IMG/VR virus record: IMGVR_UViG_3300032516_000248
Coordinates: 1 to 20,267 of that record
Direction: 5' to 3' (one strand)
Source: a virus
DNA: 20,267 nucleotides
The notes under the pieces are model-generated. The model was not told the origin of the DNA and searched no databases. It saw only the letters and a program-made list of their open reading frames with translations. Each line of letters starts with the position of its first letter. The stretch's first letter is position 1. Both the position numbers and the translations under genes were made by a program. Positions 89 to 20,267 of this stretch are shown in pieces.

Positions 89-994
89 TCACCAGGAGAA
101 AATCATTACGAGACCGGGGCCGCCTGTCCCACCGATCCCACCCCCGTTACCAGATCCCCCACCGCCGCCGCCGGAACAAAATCCGAAAGAGTCGCCCCCT
201 TTTCCACCGGCTGCTGAGTCACCGTTACATCCACCCTGGCCGCCCCACGACCACCACAGTGACGGGTTGTGTAACTGGGGGCCAGAAGGCCCATCGGCTC
301 CGAGGACAGCAACAATCGGGCGCGGAGCCTGATCCCCCACGAGACTGAGATTGCCGGCTGGAATAGTGAATGCTCCGCCCAAGCGTGGGGTTGTATTAGT
401 GGCCCCCGCACCGCCGGTGCCACCAGTACTCTGTCGGTTTAATGCGCTTAGATTCAAAGCCGTCCCGGCCGCAGCTGGGACCCCACCAGCGGTCCCCGCA
501 GTACCGGTATTGATATTGATCATTCCGAATCCGCCTGCCGCGCAATCTGCAGCCGTGTTGGCGGTAGGAGCCACACCACCAGCCCCACCAGCGCCAGAAG
601 TACCAACAGCTCCGAAACTCCCCCCAGTGGCGGTCAGAATGAGATTAGTTGTGCCCGAATTAGGCGCAATAGAGATCGACGACGTTGTGCCAGCAGTTCC
701 AGTCGGCCCCCCTCTACCAGCAGTGATATACAAGACGCTGGGGATGAGCATTAGCGGAATCGTGTTGGTATTAGAATTCCCAGAACTCCCGCCACCACCA
801 CCGCCGCCAGTGGCAGATGCCGCCCTCGAAAATCCCGCGCCGCCACCACCCCCGCCGCCCATGCATACCATGTGAGCGAATTGCGCCCCACGAGGTCTTA
901 TCCACGTATATCCCTGGGTAAAATCCGAGGCGCTGGAAACACCAATCCACTGTTGGATGTCTACTCTGGAATCGGTTGAGCGGTGTATGTACAT
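89..994 (-). CDS. Gly-rich adhesin-like tail protein, copy 3
   Basis: A 301-residue protein and the last of three tandem paralogs. Residues about 15-45 hold a compact start with a W-I-R-P-R-G element, matching W-T-K-P-R-G and W-N-K-P-R-G in the other two. It is followed by runs of Gly (GGGGGGG near residues 46-52 and 63-69), a hydrophobic strand, then Gly-Thr-Gly-Gly repeats. The end is a polyglycine block and a hydrophobic tail finishing in IFSW. This is the pattern of the glycine-rich domain found in phage tail fibres and tip adhesins, where polyglycine helices pack into a rigid stalk. Residues 242-250 carry an aromatic segment with W-W-S-W that differs from the equivalent segment in the paralogs. 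A receptor-binding role is inferred. It lies 6 bases after copy 2. Confidence 0.8.
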   Translation of the reverse strand: MYIHRSTDSRVDIQQWIGVSSASDFTQGYTWIRPRGAQFAHMVCMGGGGGGGAGFSRAASATGGGGGGGSSGNSNTNTIPLMLIPSVLYITAGRGGPTGTAGTTSSISIAPNSGTTNLILTATGGSFGAVGTSGAGGAGGVAPTANTAADCAAGGFGMININTGTAGTAGGVPAAAGTALNLSALNRQSTGGTGGAGATNTTPRLGGAFTIPAGNLSLVGDQAPRPIVAVLGADGPSGPQLHNPSLWWSWGGQGGCNGDSAAGGKGGDSFGFCSGGGGGGSGNGGGIGGTGGPGLVMIFSW

Positions 995-1000
995 ATTGAT

Positions 1001-1924
1001 CTACGAACAGAATAGGAGAACTGCGCCATCGCCACCGGCACCGCCGCTGCCACCAGTAGTGCCGCCGCCACCGCCGCCGCCGCCAGAACCCATGATCCCA
1101 TTGCCGCCTTTCCCCGCTTGTCCGAGATTAGACGTCCCGCCCCCCATGCCGGGATACACCCAGAATGGCCTGTAAACAATTACACCTCCGGACCCGTCAG
1201 AATTCGCTCCAGTTCCAGACGGCTGTGTTCTCCAATCGGAGAGTGTTACCCCGGCGGAAACGTTGATCAACCCACCAGCAAAATCAGTTGTAGTAACACC
1301 ACCGCCGCCAGTGCCACCCATGATTAAACTACCTGTAGTCGCGAGGGTTACCGCGACACCGACAGCGCCGGTGTTGGAGCCACCGCCAGACCCGGAGGTA
1401 CCCGAGATAATTGAGGCATTACTCCCTTGCCAATAATTATTTGTAGCGGCGCCACCACCAGACCCGGCTCCGCCTCCGCCGCCAGCACTGCCACCCGTCC
1501 CTAAAACTCCGCCAGGAGCCACGAATATTACGTCACAATTCGAAGTGAAGTCCGTGGATATGGAAACTATGGTGGATATTCCTGTAGTGCCGCTCGTGCT
1601 AGCAGCACCGCCAGTGCCACCTCTTCCGACGCGGATGAACAATTTATCCGGCATGAAAAAGGTCGGGGCATATACTTTGCACTGGGTCCCACCACCGCCA
1701 CCGCCGCCGCCGCCGCGAGCAGTAGCGGAAGCAGCAGTGTGCCCACCGCCGCCGCCGCCACCGGAGCCGATCACCCACATGAAGCAGTTGCTAACCCCAC
1801 GGGGCTTATTCCATATGCTGTAGGAGAGTGCGTTGTCGGTATTGTGGGCGTGGACAAAAATCTGCGTGTTCCCAAGGGGGGAACCATCAAGAAATCCAGC
1901 CATAACGTGTGCTGCGTCTAACAT
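1001..1924 (-). CDS. Gly-rich adhesin-like tail protein, copy 2
   Basis: A 307-residue protein, the middle member of the triplet. It opens MLDAAH, like MLDVGH in copy 1. The W-N-K-P-R-G element is near residues 38-43, then come polyglycine runs, a middle region rich in Gly, Ser and Thr, and an aromatic segment at residues 251-257 (YRPFWVY). A long poly-Gly block (8 Gly) precedes the C-terminal strand ending LLFCS. The layout is the same as in both neighbours, so it arose by duplication. A role in a tail fibre tip or side adhesin is inferred from composition and from its position downstream of the fibre genes. It starts with ATG 3 bases after copy 1 ends. No strong ribosome-binding site is visible, so reinitiation from the upstream gene is likely. 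Confidence 0.8.
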   Translation of the reverse strand: MLDAAHVMAGFLDGSPLGNTQIFVHAHNTDNALSYSIWNKPRGVSNCFMWVIGSGGGGGGGHTAASATARGGGGGGGGGTQCKVYAPTFFMPDKLFIRVGRGGTGGAASTSGTTGISTIVSISTDFTSNCDVIFVAPGGVLGTGGSAGGGGGAGSGGGAATNNYWQGSNASIISGTSGSGGGSNTGAVGVAVTLATTGSLIMGGTGGGGVTTTDFAGGLINVSAGVTLSDWRTQPSGTGANSDGSGGVIVYRPFWVYPGMGGGTSNLGQAGKGGNGIMGSGGGGGGGGTTGGSGGAGGDGAVLLFCS

Positions 1925-1927
1925 GGT

Positions 1928-2848
1928 TCACCAACACACTAGAATGATGAGGCCGTCGCCACCTTTACCCCCGGCACCGGCGGGGTTTCCGCCGCCGCCG
2001 CCGCCTCCGCCGCCGCCCCAAATACCGGGGCCACCAGCGCCAGCCTGGGCGCCGTCGAGGCTAAAACCACCCATGCCGCCGAAGCCATACATGCAGGCCC
2101 CCCAGTTAGGGGCACCCATGCCGCCAGTCCCAGCGCCAATACTTTGCAGTGGACGCACTTCAGAAATGAATGACCCAGCAATCGCAGTTATGGGGCCACC
2201 GGCAAAGTCTGTGCCAGCGGTGCCGCCGCCACCTGTACCGCCCATTGATACTACGCTGGTGGTGGGTATGGTCTGAGTTCCACCAGCTGCGCCTGCGGCC
2301 GCACCGCCAGCAGTACCAGCATGACCGGCGAGGAGATTACGGAAACCGATGTGGGCCAGGACCTGTTGAGCAGTGGTGCTGATAGTTCCACCAGCTCCAG
2401 CAGTGCCACCAGAAGTAGTACCCCCAGCCCCGCCGGCAGTGGGAGCGGCGCTGCTGGACCGCGCAAGAATATTCTGGGCATTCGTGCCAGTAGCAGGGGT
2501 CATCGAAACAGACGCGATGGTTCCATCAGTTCCGGCGGCGCCGGCCGCGCCACCGGCACCACCAGTGCCAGGACGTACATGCAGGGTATTTGGCACCATG
2601 CATAGCGGCATGATGGTGCGGGTTTGACCCCCAGATCCACCGCCGCCACCGCCGGCTACAGTCGATAGTGCGGCACCGGTGAAACCACCGCCGCCGCCAG
2701 CACCGGAGCCAACTGTGTATATGAAAAAGAACGTGTAGCCACGCGGTTTCGTCCACGTAAACCACGTATTTCCGTCGGCGTGCGAGGCGCCGGTGAAAAT
2801 TTGTACGTCAACTCTCCCCGACTTTGGCAGGTGGCCGACGTCGAGCAC
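1928..2848 (-). CDS. Gly-rich adhesin-like tail protein, copy 1
   Basis: A 306-residue protein, first of the three paralogs. It starts with GTG (MLDVGH). Residues about 15-45 form the conserved head with W-T-K-P-R-G, followed by a hydrophobic strand and polyglycine (GGGGG, GGGGGG). The middle is built of GGAGG, GTAG and similar short repeats, like a collagen or polyglycine-II fold. Residues 248-256 hold the copy-specific segment NWGACMYGF, followed by ten consecutive Gly and an end in ILVCW. The family resembles the glycine-rich phage domain used in fibre tips. Function as receptor-binding protein is inferred. Its start is 3 bases after the preceding stop, with a GGAAAG element upstream. Confidence 0.8.
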   Translation of the reverse strand: MLDVGHLPKSGRVDVQIFTGASHADGNTWFTWTKPRGYTFFFIYTVGSGAGGGGGFTGAALSTVAGGGGGGSGGQTRTIMPLCMVPNTLHVRPGTGGAGGAAGAAGTDGTIASVSMTPATGTNAQNILARSSSAAPTAGGAGGTTSGGTAGAGGTISTTAQQVLAHIGFRNLLAGHAGTAGGAAAGAAGGTQTIPTTSVVSMGGTGGGGTAGTDFAGGPITAIAGSFISEVRPLQSIGAGTGGMGAPNWGACMYGFGGMGGFSLDGAQAGAGGPGIWGGGGGGGGGGNPAGAGGKGGDGLIILVCW

Positions 2849-14514: not shown

Positions 14515-15900
14515 TTACGTCCATCCTGCTGCGGTCGGAGCCGGGGTTGTGATCATCCCATACGGCGGCTTTACAAACTTTGCATAAACTTTAGTCGAAT
14601 GCCCCAGGGCTGCGTACTGCAATGCATCGGCGATGTCGGACCAGGGGTGATCCTTGGCCGGCAGCGGCTGCAGTTGGCCGTCCTTGCGCTTAGCATACCG
14701 GTACTTGGACCGTAGCGCACGTATCAGGTTGACACACCGGGGGCTGACCAAAATTGCAGGCCCGCCATCCCGCTGTTGCATGAACCATTTCTCGACCGAA
14801 CGCAGCCGTGGATCGATACTATTCGTAAGGGCGGGCTGGGCACGGAAACCTAACCGCTTCAAGGCATCGAAGATGCTTTCCTCACCAATCTGCGAACGAA
14901 CGCGACCGGAAGGGTCACCAACGACACCAACAGGAAGACGATGAAACTCCGGTTCGGCAAGGATTGGACGTAACACCGTAACCACGAACTGCTCGATGCC
15001 CATGTTTTCACTGACAGCCTCCGCTAGCACGAGCATACGCCCGCGAGGGTCAAGCTGGGTAAGTACCATGGCGGGGCTGCGGCCGAAGTCCATGCCTGCA
15101 ATCAGCATACTCATCGGTACTGGCTTCAGGACTTCTTTGGCAATGTGGAAGTCGGAACGGAACGTAGATCGGAATACCGCCTCGCCGGAGAGGGAGGGGG
15201 TAATCTGGTTATCGATATACTGCTCAACCCACTCAGGTGTGTTGTTCTCGACGAGTTCTTCGTAGTACCCATCGGGGAGATTTTCCTTGTTCTCAGCGTA
15301 GGGATCGCGGGCCCCTGGCTGGACAAAGTACCCCCAGCTTGGATTCAGTTCCAGCTCGAGGGATTTGTACCAGATGTCATCTTCGCTGAACGAGTTGGTC
15401 TCCCCAAACACTCCGCGCCAGGTAGTTCCACCGCGCATCTTCGAAGGGTACCTGCCAACACGGCCAAGAATATCTTCGAGGATCTTCGGGGGCAATTCGC
15501 GCAGTTCGGACAGCCATGCGAAGGTGAGTTCCAGGGACAACAAGCGCTGCACGTTATCCGGGGTATCCAGGGGCAGTAATAACCACTCTGTCTCCACGTC
15601 GTTGAACCGAATGTAGATCGTATGGTTGCTGGTCTTGTAATGCATGATCTCTGGCGGGATCACGTTACGAATCGTCTGCAGCACGGTCGTTTCCAACTGC
15701 TGCAAGGTGTTACGGACGATCACACCGCGGGTATGGCGTATGCCATCCGCTCCACGGGCTTGCTGGCAGGCCCGGCGGAACATTTCCACCGCCATGACAG
15801 TCGATTTTCCGGATCCTACAGGACCGCGAACGACGCGTACTCGCGAATCCGATGCCATGAACTCCCCCAGAGTCTTGGCGGGGGTGTAGTCCAGATTCAT
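14515..15900 (-). CDS. Terminase large subunit (ATPase and nuclease)
   Basis: A 461-residue packaging motor that translocates DNA into the procapsid and cuts it at headful or cohesive sites. Walker A is G-P-V-G-S-G-K-S-T at residues 26-34. A Walker B-like strand lies at 123-132 (L-E-L-T-F-A-W-L-S-E) with catalytic Glu 132. The C-terminal nuclease has D271 (A-G-M-D-F-G), D329 (V-G-D-P-S-G-R) and the acidic cluster D422/D425 (W-S-D-I-A-D-A-L). ATG 15900 overlaps the holin-like gene stop (ATGA). Length is normal for the group. Walker B carries L-S-E rather than D-E, as in several related phage terminases. Confidence 0.95.
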   Translation of the reverse strand: MNLDYTPAKTLGEFMASDSRVRVVRGPVGSGKSTVMAVEMFRRACQQARGADGIRHTRGVIVRNTLQQLETTVLQTIRNVIPPEIMHYKTSNHTIYIRFNDVETEWLLLPLDTPDNVQRLLSLELTFAWLSELRELPPKILEDILGRVGRYPSKMRGGTTWRGVFGETNSFSEDDIWYKSLELELNPSWGYFVQPGARDPYAENKENLPDGYYEELVENNTPEWVEQYIDNQITPSLSGEAVFRSTFRSDFHIAKEVLKPVPMSMLIAGMDFGRSPAMVLTQLDPRGRMLVLAEAVSENMGIEQFVVTVLRPILAEPEFHRLPVGVVGDPSGRVRSQIGEESIFDALKRLGFRAQPALTNSIDPRLRSVEKWFMQQRDGGPAILVSPRCVNLIRALRSKYRYAKRKDGQLQPLPAKDHPWSDIADALQYAALGHSTKVYAKFVKPPYGMITTPAPTAAGWT

Positions 15901-16142
15901 GGGGGGCTGATAGGCGGAGGCTCAGGGTTGGTGCCGGAGTCGCGGGTCCGACTGAACCAGAATTGCAAAACCATCATCACACCGGCGGTGAGAACCCCAA
16001 GCAAAATGCTCAGCTGATCCCGCCACTCCGGAGGAGTCAGGACTTTACCTTCCAGGAACAACCCGAGCATGAGGAAGTACCCGGTCAGAAAAATTATGCT
16101 CAATGCAATCTGAGCCGTGGCCAGGATACGCGAAGTTTTCAT
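15897..16142 (-). CDS. Holin-like small membrane protein (two TM)
   Basis: An 81-residue protein with two hydrophobic helices at about residues 8-30 and 45-62, separated by a short loop with E-G-K-V-L-T-P-P-E-W-R-D. The second ends V-L-Q-F-W-F-S-R-T-R-D-S-G, and the tail is Pro-rich. Small two-TM proteins with a Q-F-(F/W)-F-x-S end are common phage holin candidates. Terminase-adjacent holins occur in T7-like genomes. The start has GGAAG upstream. It ends in ATGA with the large terminase. No lysin is adjacent, so holin is a moderate call; an antiholin or other membrane protein is possible. Confidence 0.6.
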   Translation of the reverse strand: MKTSRILATAQIALSIIFLTGYFLMLGLFLEGKVLTPPEWRDQLSILLGVLTAGVMMVLQFWFSRTRDSGTNPEPPPISPP

Positions 16143-16637
16143 TTAGAACTTCCAGCTGACGGTAGCGAAATCACGCCCGGCATTTGGTTCGCAACTACCC
16201 GCGCTGGAGAAGTGCCGCCACTGCGCGGCGATCCGGTCGGAGAACCGCCAGCGGGCCATCAAGGCCGCGGTGTACTGGCAGGTGTATTCCCAGGAGACGT
16301 TGGTATATGCGAATCCGAACCCGAGTTCGAACTTTTTCCAGCCATCGACGATCAACCCATAGGCGGTGAACGCGTTCGGATTATCCTGGTAGTGATACGA
16401 CTGGCCAGACAACAGGAACCCAATTTCCCAGTCGGTGTTGACCGGGCCGGCCTGCGGCCAGCGAACGACGAGTCCGAGGGCTGGGGTCTCCCCTCGCACC
16501 ATGGCGCTGCCACCTTCCACACTCAGATCGGAGGCCCGTGACTTGATCGCGAACAGGGCAAGCAGCAACGCAACGAACGCCACGATGGCGTACACCACCG
16601 GCTTCTTGTTATTGAGCAGCTTTTTCTTTTTTGCCAT
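16143..16637 (-). CDS. PagL-like outer-membrane lipid A deacylase candidate
   Basis: A 164-residue protein. A basic N-terminus (K3-K6) and hydrophobic segment at about 13-30 form a signal peptide ending near S-R-A-S-D. The mature part (about 128 residues) alternates aromatic and polar residues as in a small beta barrel and ends in F, as outer-membrane barrels do. Near the C-terminus it reads R-H-F-S-S-A-G, then P-N-A-G-R-D. H142, S144, G147, N152 and D156 fall at offsets 0, +2, +5, +10 and +14. In PagL the active site is H126, S128 and E140, with G131 and N136 at the oxyanion hole, which are the same offsets. The acid here is Asp instead of Glu. It would remove the 3-O acyl chain of lipid A. 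Ribosome-binding site GGAG; TAATG overlap with the gene before. Activity is inferred. Confidence 0.65.
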   Translation of the reverse strand: MAKKKKLLNNKKPVVYAIVAFVALLLALFAIKSRASDLSVEGGSAMVRGETPALGLVVRWPQAGPVNTDWEIGFLLSGQSYHYQDNPNAFTAYGLIVDGWKKFELGFGFAYTNVSWEYTCQYTAALMARWRFSDRIAAQWRHFSSAGSCEPNAGRDFATVSWKF

Positions 16638-16966
16638 TACGGGGACTCCTCTAACTCGGCAATATGCGCGTTGATACGGGCCAGATCATCCACATACCCC
16701 TGCAATACCAACTTGTCGTACTCATTGAGATCTGGTTTGACAGCCAGCAGTTGCATACTGGAACTGGTCATTTCTTTCTGGAACTTGAGGTCGGCCAGTT
16801 TCCGGTCGGTCGCCTCTTCCTGGACAGACTGCTGGTCCATCTGCTGGGCTTCAGATCTGCTTATGACCCAGCCAGTCTTGAGGGCAATTCCGTAGAGAAT
16901 GCCCGCCGCAGTGGCTAGCACCAGGAAGTCCCTGGCCAACTCCATCGGAGAGAGATCAATCTTCAC
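16637..16966 (-). CDS. Spanin-like membrane/coiled-coil protein
   Basis: A 109-residue protein if GTG 16966 is used, which overlaps the preceding stop as GTGA. A start at 16978 or ATG 16945 is also possible. After a short N-terminus comes one membrane helix (L-A-R-D-F-L-V-L-A-T-A-A-G-I-L-Y-G-I-A-L). It is followed by a charged helical region with E-A-Q-Q-M-D-Q-Q-S-V-Q-E-E-A-T-D-R-K and a late helix with L-A-R-I-N-A-H-I-A-E-L-E-E. One N-terminal TM followed by a periplasmic coiled coil is the plan of an inner-membrane spanin, as Rz in T7, which also lies between terminase genes. No lipobox partner is visible. Rz-like is a reasonable but not certain call. Confidence 0.55.
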   Translation of the reverse strand: MKIDLSPMELARDFLVLATAAGILYGIALKTGWVISRSEAQQMDQQSVQEEATDRKLADLKFQKEMTSSSMQLLAVKPDLNEYDKLVLQGYVDDLARINAHIAELEESP

Positions 16967-17658
16967 GCCAACGCGCACTTAGTGACGATGATCGAAGAGC
17001 GCGGGGTCCTGGTGATGTTCACGTTCGCCCTGCGTATCTTATAAAACACAGGCGCCCGCCACTTGATATCCACCTGGGTATTTGTACAGGCAGTGCCCAG
17101 CGGCATGGTTCCTATCACGCGTCCGAGCAGGATCTCGTTGTTCGAATTCATCCGCAAGTCATACGCGACAGTGATGGTTGAAGTCAGCGTCGGCGGATTT
17201 GGAACTGGAGACGGGAATACTTTTGCAACTACCAGAGACGCCGCTGACTCCGCCAAAAACGTATTCTTGACATACGCCCGCCAGCAAACTATCTGGGCGG
17301 GGGCGAATCCGGGGACTACTACCGAGACCGCTGGCTGGTTCACCACCACCTCGCTGGCCTTCACGCCGAAGGTGCCGCCAGCTCCGCATGTGCCCCACTC
17401 AATCCTGGTTGATACTAGCGAGCCTGGCCCCGTCGCCGGGATCACCGTGGCGTCGGTGTTGGTAGTCGGATTGGTCCACGACACTGTGGCGTCGTACGCG
17501 AAGGCCTGCCATGAGAAAAACAGTATGAGCAAAAACGCCAGACTCATGATCGCCACCTGGATCTTGTATTTCGTATAGAAATACGAGAACGATTCCACGA
17601 GTGCGTCGTGATGCTTCGCAACCCAGGCCAGGGCCAGGACCCAATACTTGAACACCAT
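16963..17658 (-). CDS. Membrane-anchored fibronectin-III-like protein
   Basis: A 231-residue protein. Residues 35-50 are strongly hydrophobic and end in A-F-A-Y, a possible signal-peptidase site after a long basic N-region; otherwise it is a membrane anchor. The exported part opens A-T-V-S-W-T-N-P-T-T-N-T-D and has P-A-T-G-P-G-S-L-V-S-T-R-I-E-W-G-T-C, V-P-G-F-A-P-A-Q-I-V-C-W-R-A-Y-V-K-N and a N-P-P-T-L linker. This is a fibronectin type III strand pattern with two Cys that could pair. A second beta-rich region follows (about 165-231), ending in K-C-A-L-A. The start has GGAG upstream. It is not a usual lysis gene; it may bind the envelope or act at the cell surface. Function unknown. Confidence 0.7.
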   Translation of the reverse strand: MVFKYWVLALAWVAKHHDALVESFSYFYTKYKIQVAIMSLAFLLILFFSWQAFAYDATVSWTNPTTNTDATVIPATGPGSLVSTRIEWGTCGAGGTFGVKASEVVVNQPAVSVVVPGFAPAQIVCWRAYVKNTFLAESAASLVVAKVFPSPVPNPPTLTSTITVAYDLRMNSNNEILLGRVIGTMPLGTACTNTQVDIKWRAPVFYKIRRANVNITRTPRSSIIVTKCALA

Positions 17659-19606: not shown

Positions 19607-19626
19607 GCGGGGATTATGGGGGTAGG

Positions 19627-20193
19627 TTATGGGGATGTCAAACCCAAAGGACGGGTCAAGTGGGTACGTATCCGATGACAATTGGCACAAACGACATCGC
19701 ACTTAGCTGCCTCTGCGAGCATACCTTTGAACGTGCCCATCTTTGAAACCAGTCGTTTTTTATTCTCCCGATGGTCGAAGTCCATGACGTAGGGTGGGTA
19801 CTTCTGCCCACAGTCGTGGCATGGTTTGTTTTTCAACTGATCTCTAAACTCGCGTAGACGTTGGACTACTGGTACTCCGCCTTGGTGCCCGTTATGCCGG
19901 TGTGCTCCACGAGGTTCTCTAACCGCATCGTCGTCCGCTACTCCGCGTGATAACCGGCTTCGAATCAAGTAGGCGCTTGTCCCAAACCGCTTAGCCGCCT
20001 GGTCTACGGAAAAAGTCTCACCATTAATCGTCAAGCGGGTCTTGTGAATTGGGGTGCGGAGGGCCCGGTCCAGGGGCCACTTGGCCTCCAGACGAGATCT
20101 GAGAGACGCGGGGGGTATGCCGAATGCGGCCGCCATAGCTGAAAAACTCGGGAAATTGACCCCCTCGTGGGTGTAACTAAGCCGCTTGGCCAT
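19627..20193 (-). CDS. HNH endonuclease
   Basis: A 188-residue protein. The C-terminal half is an HNH nuclease with a zinc knuckle: C125 and C128 (C-H-D-C-G), D138-F-D140-H141, then C169 and C172-H173 (C-A-N-C-H) followed by R-I-R-T-H. The N-terminal half contains two similar repeats of about 38 residues (S-M-A-A-A-F-G ... S-L-R-S-R-L-E and Q-A-A-K-R-F-G ... L-I-R-S-R-L-S). They look like short helix-turn-helix DNA-binding modules. It may be a homing endonuclease or help the packaging terminase. The start ATG has AAGGGA upstream; it is first in the block. Confidence 0.85.
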   Translation of the reverse strand: MAKRLSYTHEGVNFPSFSAMAAAFGIPPASLRSRLEAKWPLDRALRTPIHKTRLTINGETFSVDQAAKRFGTSAYLIRSRLSRGVADDDAVREPRGAHRHNGHQGGVPVVQRLREFRDQLKNKPCHDCGQKYPPYVMDFDHRENKKRLVSKMGTFKGMLAEAAKCDVVCANCHRIRTHLTRPLGLTSP

Positions 20194-20224
20194 TTGAAAT
20201 TCCCTTAAAAACTAAAACTGACGA

Positions 20225-20253
20225 AGTATAACATGAATTTGGGAGTTCGGTAA
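20225..20253 (-). promoter_or_regulatory. Possible sigma-70-type promoter for the packaging block
   Basis: On the minus strand TTACCG (20253-20248) is followed after exactly 17 bases by TATACT (20230-20225). The -10 box matches 5 of 6 consensus positions and the -35 box about 3 of 6. It lies 32 bases before the HNH start, in an AT-rich leader unlike the GC-rich genes around it. It is the only candidate promoter I see in the window. The -35 is weak and the fragment ends here, so confidence is low. Confidence 0.4.
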
Positions 20254-20267
20254 GTCCAGGGTACATA

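Follow-up and report, generated by a model that had tools for sequence, protein, structure and literature searches.

A PagL-family lipid A deacylase candidate encoded near the terminase gene of a phage

What use could a phage make of a lipid A deacylase encoded near its terminase gene? The question is raised by one ORF in a 20,267-base IMG/VR virus record (IMGVR_UViG_3300032516_000248), which was analysed over its whole length (hereafter the window) and is probably a fragment. The ORF was found exactly where the original prediction had placed it, at 16143..16637 on the minus strand. It runs from ATG to TAA, is preceded by AGGAG, and encodes a PagL-family lipid A deacylase candidate of 164 aa.

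Family membership and predicted fold

A profile search and a structure prediction had been proposed as checks in the original prediction. In the former, the window protein matched Pfam PF09411 (PagL) with 25.2 bits, the curated cut-off being 23, and the same family was matched by all 23 phage relatives forming alignment A2. Relatives were collected via neighbouring genes and by scanning viral contigs for the active-site motif in its DNA form; the neighbouring-gene route gave one distant relative (G014, 34–35% identity), and the fragment L093 carries a PagL 57% identical to that of the window. The A2 profile had a single match among PDB sequences, the Pseudomonas aeruginosa PagL 2ERV, at an E value of 6.4e-15 and over nearly the full length. 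Since many members had been recovered by the motif, it was deleted from the phage profile; bacterial PagLs still outranked all 727 decoys, the first decoy appearing at rank 26. The possibility that the motif alone drove the family call was thus rejected and, together with the PF09411 score above the cut-off, this result shows that the motif is not a chance one. Membership of the window protein in the PagL family is secure.

Searches of PHROGs and NCBIfam with the window protein gave no match, a whole-protein search of viral contigs gave none either, and a scan of GTDB genomes using the alignment of the window and L093 proteins gave no match; a motif scan of GTDB genomes recovered bacterial PagLs. 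Eleven phage PagLs, including that of the window, had no tblastn match in 50,697 INPHARED isolate-phage records.

All five residues named in the original prediction (H142, S144, G147, N152, and D156) occur in the ORF with PagL spacing, and they align with H126, S128, G131, N136, and E140 of 2ERV, which we take to be the catalytic His and Ser, the oxyanion Gly and Asn, and the acid, respectively. The motif DNA (16177..16214, minus strand) lies within the ORF and encodes HFSSAGSCEPNAG; its DNA form had a single occurrence in the window, and 100 shuffles gave none. H, S, G, N, and mostly D were retained across relatives down to 20–35% identity, among them L027 and L289, both recovered without the motif; L289, recovered via patterns outside it, retained all five. 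Asp at H+14 was common both in phage PagLs of the window's group and in the motif-based bacterial sample. Among the 111 motif-matched bacterial PagLs listed, the acid position was occupied by Asn (66), Asp (36), Thr (7), Glu (1), and His (1). Asp replacing Glu was therefore ruled out as a phage peculiarity and, with Asn or Asp usual in the bacterial sample, an acidic residue is not a strict feature of PagL. The length from His to the end was mostly 23 residues in phage PagLs of the window's group and mostly 25 in the bacterial PagLs listed.

AlphaFold2, run on A2, gave a model with a pLDDT of 85.9, consisting of a helix at residues 11–32 and eight strands between residues 37 and 163, in agreement with the barrel-like pattern described earlier. 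When the PDB was searched with Foldseek, both chains of 2ERV ranked on top (TM 0.57–0.65), and no other match fell below E 0.001; 2ERV aligned to the model at approximately 12% identity. The window protein is predicted to be an eight-strand outer-membrane beta-barrel. Identity with PagP, a palmitoyltransferase barrel, was rejected, because PagP 1THQ ranked only 14th (E 7.6e-3), behind PagL and OmpA, and the window protein had no PagP Pfam match. The protein ends in F164, as the claim of a final Phe had stated. Where a signal peptide had been claimed, a hydrophobic N-terminal stretch is present at about residues 14–31. Its length exceeds that expected of a signal peptide; the candidate cleavage site, between SRA and SD, is plausible but non-canonical as judged by eye.

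Gene neighbourhood in the window and in other phages

Four abutting genes on the minus strand code, in order, for a TM/coiled-coil protein, PagL, a two-TM protein, and the terminase large subunit (TerL). The first (113 aa, 16637..16978) has a coiled-coil-like part after its single TM segment, and its gene terminates at the PagL start in the sequence TAATG. The two-TM protein (81 aa, 15897..16142) is encoded directly past the PagL stop, with its own stop overlapping the TerL start (ATGA). TerL (14515..15900; phrog_2, E 3.8e-24) closes the chained block, and on the other side lies the gene for a 231-aa protein (16963..17658, minus strand) with one TM segment and an extended secreted-like part. 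The flanking genes had been called spanin-like and holin-like; this is correct for the topology of the 113-aa and 81-aa proteins and only for that, as neither gave a significant family match in Pfam or PHROGs. No endolysin was seen adjoining the window PagL.

Two other regions of the window were recorded. Three tandem Gly-rich paralogue-like genes of approximately 305 aa each (89–2848, minus strand), one of which matches minor tail protein families, are probably tail-fibre or adhesin repeats. An HNH endonuclease region (19616–20267) is 99.1% identical over 652 bases to contigs L002/L003, with flanks of about 79% identity or less, a pattern suggesting that a homing-type gene has spread recently.

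Among TerL and portal relatives, gene order is conserved around the slot between the 231-aa gene, which forms its upstream border, and TerL. In L002/L003, whose TerL is 90% identical to that of the window, the slot is taken up by a holin (phrog_9284, E 7.8e-6) together with two further ORFs, one lipoprotein-like and one small; in L004 and L005 it holds small TM proteins. PagL was found in only one of the 23 core relatives, the distant G014, and there elsewhere in the genome. Since the slot in relatives holds a holin or small TM proteins, PagL is an accessory occupant of a lysis-type slot.

Relatives of PagL are carried by approximately 25 diverse IMG/VR contigs, and several of them adjoin holin, spanin, endolysin, or TerL genes. 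The neighbours of PagL in L158 are a holin (E 1.5e-4) and a spanin with a weak match (E 0.016), and an M15 endolysin is encoded roughly 2.5 kb from it; L153 combines PagL with an Rz-like spanin (E 2e-4) and an amidase (E 3.6e-60); in L093, PagL lies between a SleB-type hydrolase (E 4.7e-25) and a gene for a small TM protein; and in L289 and L151 PagL adjoins TerL. Small TM proteins were neighbours of 6 of 15 PagLs, compared with 12 among 152 other ORFs (p = 0.002); the ORFs for this test were called crudely, and the 15 PagLs include related loci. PagL lies away from lysis genes in G014, L028, L155, L144/L159, L160, and most marine contigs. Two different phages (L028, 5996–7591; L148, 6813–8453) encode similar zinc-ribbon proteins of about 530–550 aa near PagL.

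Phage branch and Pseudomonas-type prophages

A tree of 62 PagLs, with bacterial members taken by motif from among the matches listed, separated 24 phage and 2 bacterial sequences from 35 bacterial sequences and that of viral contig L062 (97/97). The two bacterial genes on the phage side are from gammaproteobacterial MAGs (L199, 1353–1931; L180, 47–220) and stand amid cellular-looking genes. The phage branch thus has cellular cousins, hinting at either a cellular source of the branch or exchange.

A further 95 motif hits in predicted viral contigs were host-type PagLs of Pseudomonas type, the host name being deduced from the sequence and not given in the records. They included L102 (7125–7634), L061 (7513–8025), L034 (5905–6483), and about 92 more, from L029 to L147. 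The PagL of L102 matched 2ERV at E 1.4e-71, and the host-type PagL matched full length to PHROG 15758, labelled "unknown function" in PHROGs. These contigs contain lambdoid-type genes, and the PagL loci lie at the junction of Q/NinG-type genes with holin, spanin-like, or terminase genes. Of the 57 contigs with enough upstream DNA, 49 had a Q-type, NinG, or NinB gene within 4 kb upstream, and 29 of 76 had one of the three holins tested for no more than 2 kb downstream; in others, such as L141, genes for hol-like and spanin-like proteins, an HNH gene, and TerL follow PagL. Reading these hits as mere host flanks was unsupported, as phage genes were present on both sides in the loci read. The Pseudomonas-type prophage PagL seems to have been recruited into a late block separately, as a second event. 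The envelope timing put forward in the original prediction is backed by the lysis, packaging, and late-regulator neighbours of PagL in other phages and by the holin in the relatives' slot.

Proposed role and alternative explanations

We propose that the window gene encodes a serine hydrolase of the PagL family that forms an outer-membrane beta-barrel and would be produced from the packaging/lysis block at a late stage of infection, exported, and inserted into the host outer membrane. There it would remove the 3-O-linked acyl chain from lipid A, an activity that we consider likely. Deacylated lipid A would make the outer membrane more curved and more prone to vesiculation, with looser packing of LPS, so that the weakened outer membrane, as the last barrier, would yield more easily once holin, endolysin, and spanin-type proteins act. 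In Salmonella, His163 and Ser165 of PagL are essential, and active PagL raised vesicle output about 4-fold, with no rise for the H163A/S165A variant (PMC4958258); a role in weakening or vesiculating the outer membrane accords with this effect. We infer enzyme activity, late expression, and a contribution to lysis for the window PagL, and give the whole account, of a late-made PagL-family enzyme that deacylates lipid A and weakens or vesiculates the outer membrane for lysis, an even chance of being right. Against a role in lysis, close relatives manage without PagL, no endolysin adjoins the window PagL, whose immediate neighbours are without lysis-family matches, and PagL lies away from lysis genes in G014, L155, L144/L159, L160, and most marine contigs.

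The main alternative is receptor or debris modification, in which lipid A deacylation alters the cell surface, blocking superinfection or the sticking of progeny to LPS debris and vesicles; the lysis-gene neighbourhood would then reflect late timing only. The PF09411, 2ERV, and fold evidence applies equally to this explanation, the late position fits it, and occurrence as an accessory gene (1 of 23 core relatives) would suit a host-specific surface function. However, the 3-O acyl chain of lipid A lies deep within the membrane, and the parts of LPS that serve as phage receptors are usually sugars of the core or O-antigen; we consider surface alteration unlikely. That the protein is an inactive or re-purposed barrel of PagL fold, or has a different lipid ester, for instance phospholipid, as its substrate, would agree with its distance from tested PagLs (about 12% identity to 2ERV in Foldseek), but is made distinctly unlikely by the retention of the active-site residues at 20–35% identity, L027 and L289 included. 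Least probable, and by our estimate very improbable, is cargo for lysogenic conversion that aids the host cell through altered endotoxin, vesicles, or peptide resistance. The 95 Pseudomonas-type PagLs in predicted viral contigs with lambdoid-type genes speak for such cargo, whereas the window PagL sits in a tight gene chain with no room for its own promoter, and no tyrosine integrase match was obtained in the window and 11 other PagL-bearing records, all fragments; in the search of 19 records, the sole match was in G006, which is without PagL.

Several known systems are close to the window PagL. The PagL family itself is already known, and the window protein shares with it (PF09411; 2ERV) the eight-strand barrel, here predicted, the spacing of His, Ser, and oxyanion Gly and Asn, export, here putative, and the C-terminal Phe. 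It differs from 2ERV in being phage-encoded, shorter (barrel of about 129 residues), and of low identity, and in its long hydrophobic N-terminus and its position in a packaging/lysis block. PHROG 15758 is also a phage-borne PagL family, but represents the host-type branch, to which the window protein had no match. LpxR, the lipid A 3′-O-deacylase of EHEC and others, is likewise an outer-membrane lipid A deacylase and sometimes located on mobile elements; it belongs to a different, larger barrel family, and the Pfam search gave no LpxR match for the window protein. In the literature searched, with subscription journals outside its coverage, no description of a phage PagL was found, mentions of "PagL" in two phage papers being author names and not the enzyme; the phage-dominated branch with its lysis/packaging linkage and its Pseudomonas-prophage counterpart is undescribed in the same literature and unnamed in PHROGs.

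The accepted outer-membrane step in phage lysis is mechanical, carried out by spanins and disruptins. With these the window PagL shares the proposed target, the outer membrane, and the timing; they fuse or disrupt membranes without catalysis, whereas the window PagL would be a lipid A enzyme. Different phage lineages may have repeatedly recruited PagL into late blocks as a catalytic outer-membrane lysis factor, the enzymatic counterpart of spanins, once in the phage-dominated branch and again from host-type PagL in Pseudomonas prophages, a generalization that we put somewhat short of even. PHROG 15758, listed as unknown, gains a likely function as PagL. If the generalization is true, a late-block lipid A deacylase would add a chemical step to the mechanical lysis of the outer membrane, might help to account for phages in which no spanin is recognisable, and would influence the endotoxin structure and vesicle output of phage lysates.
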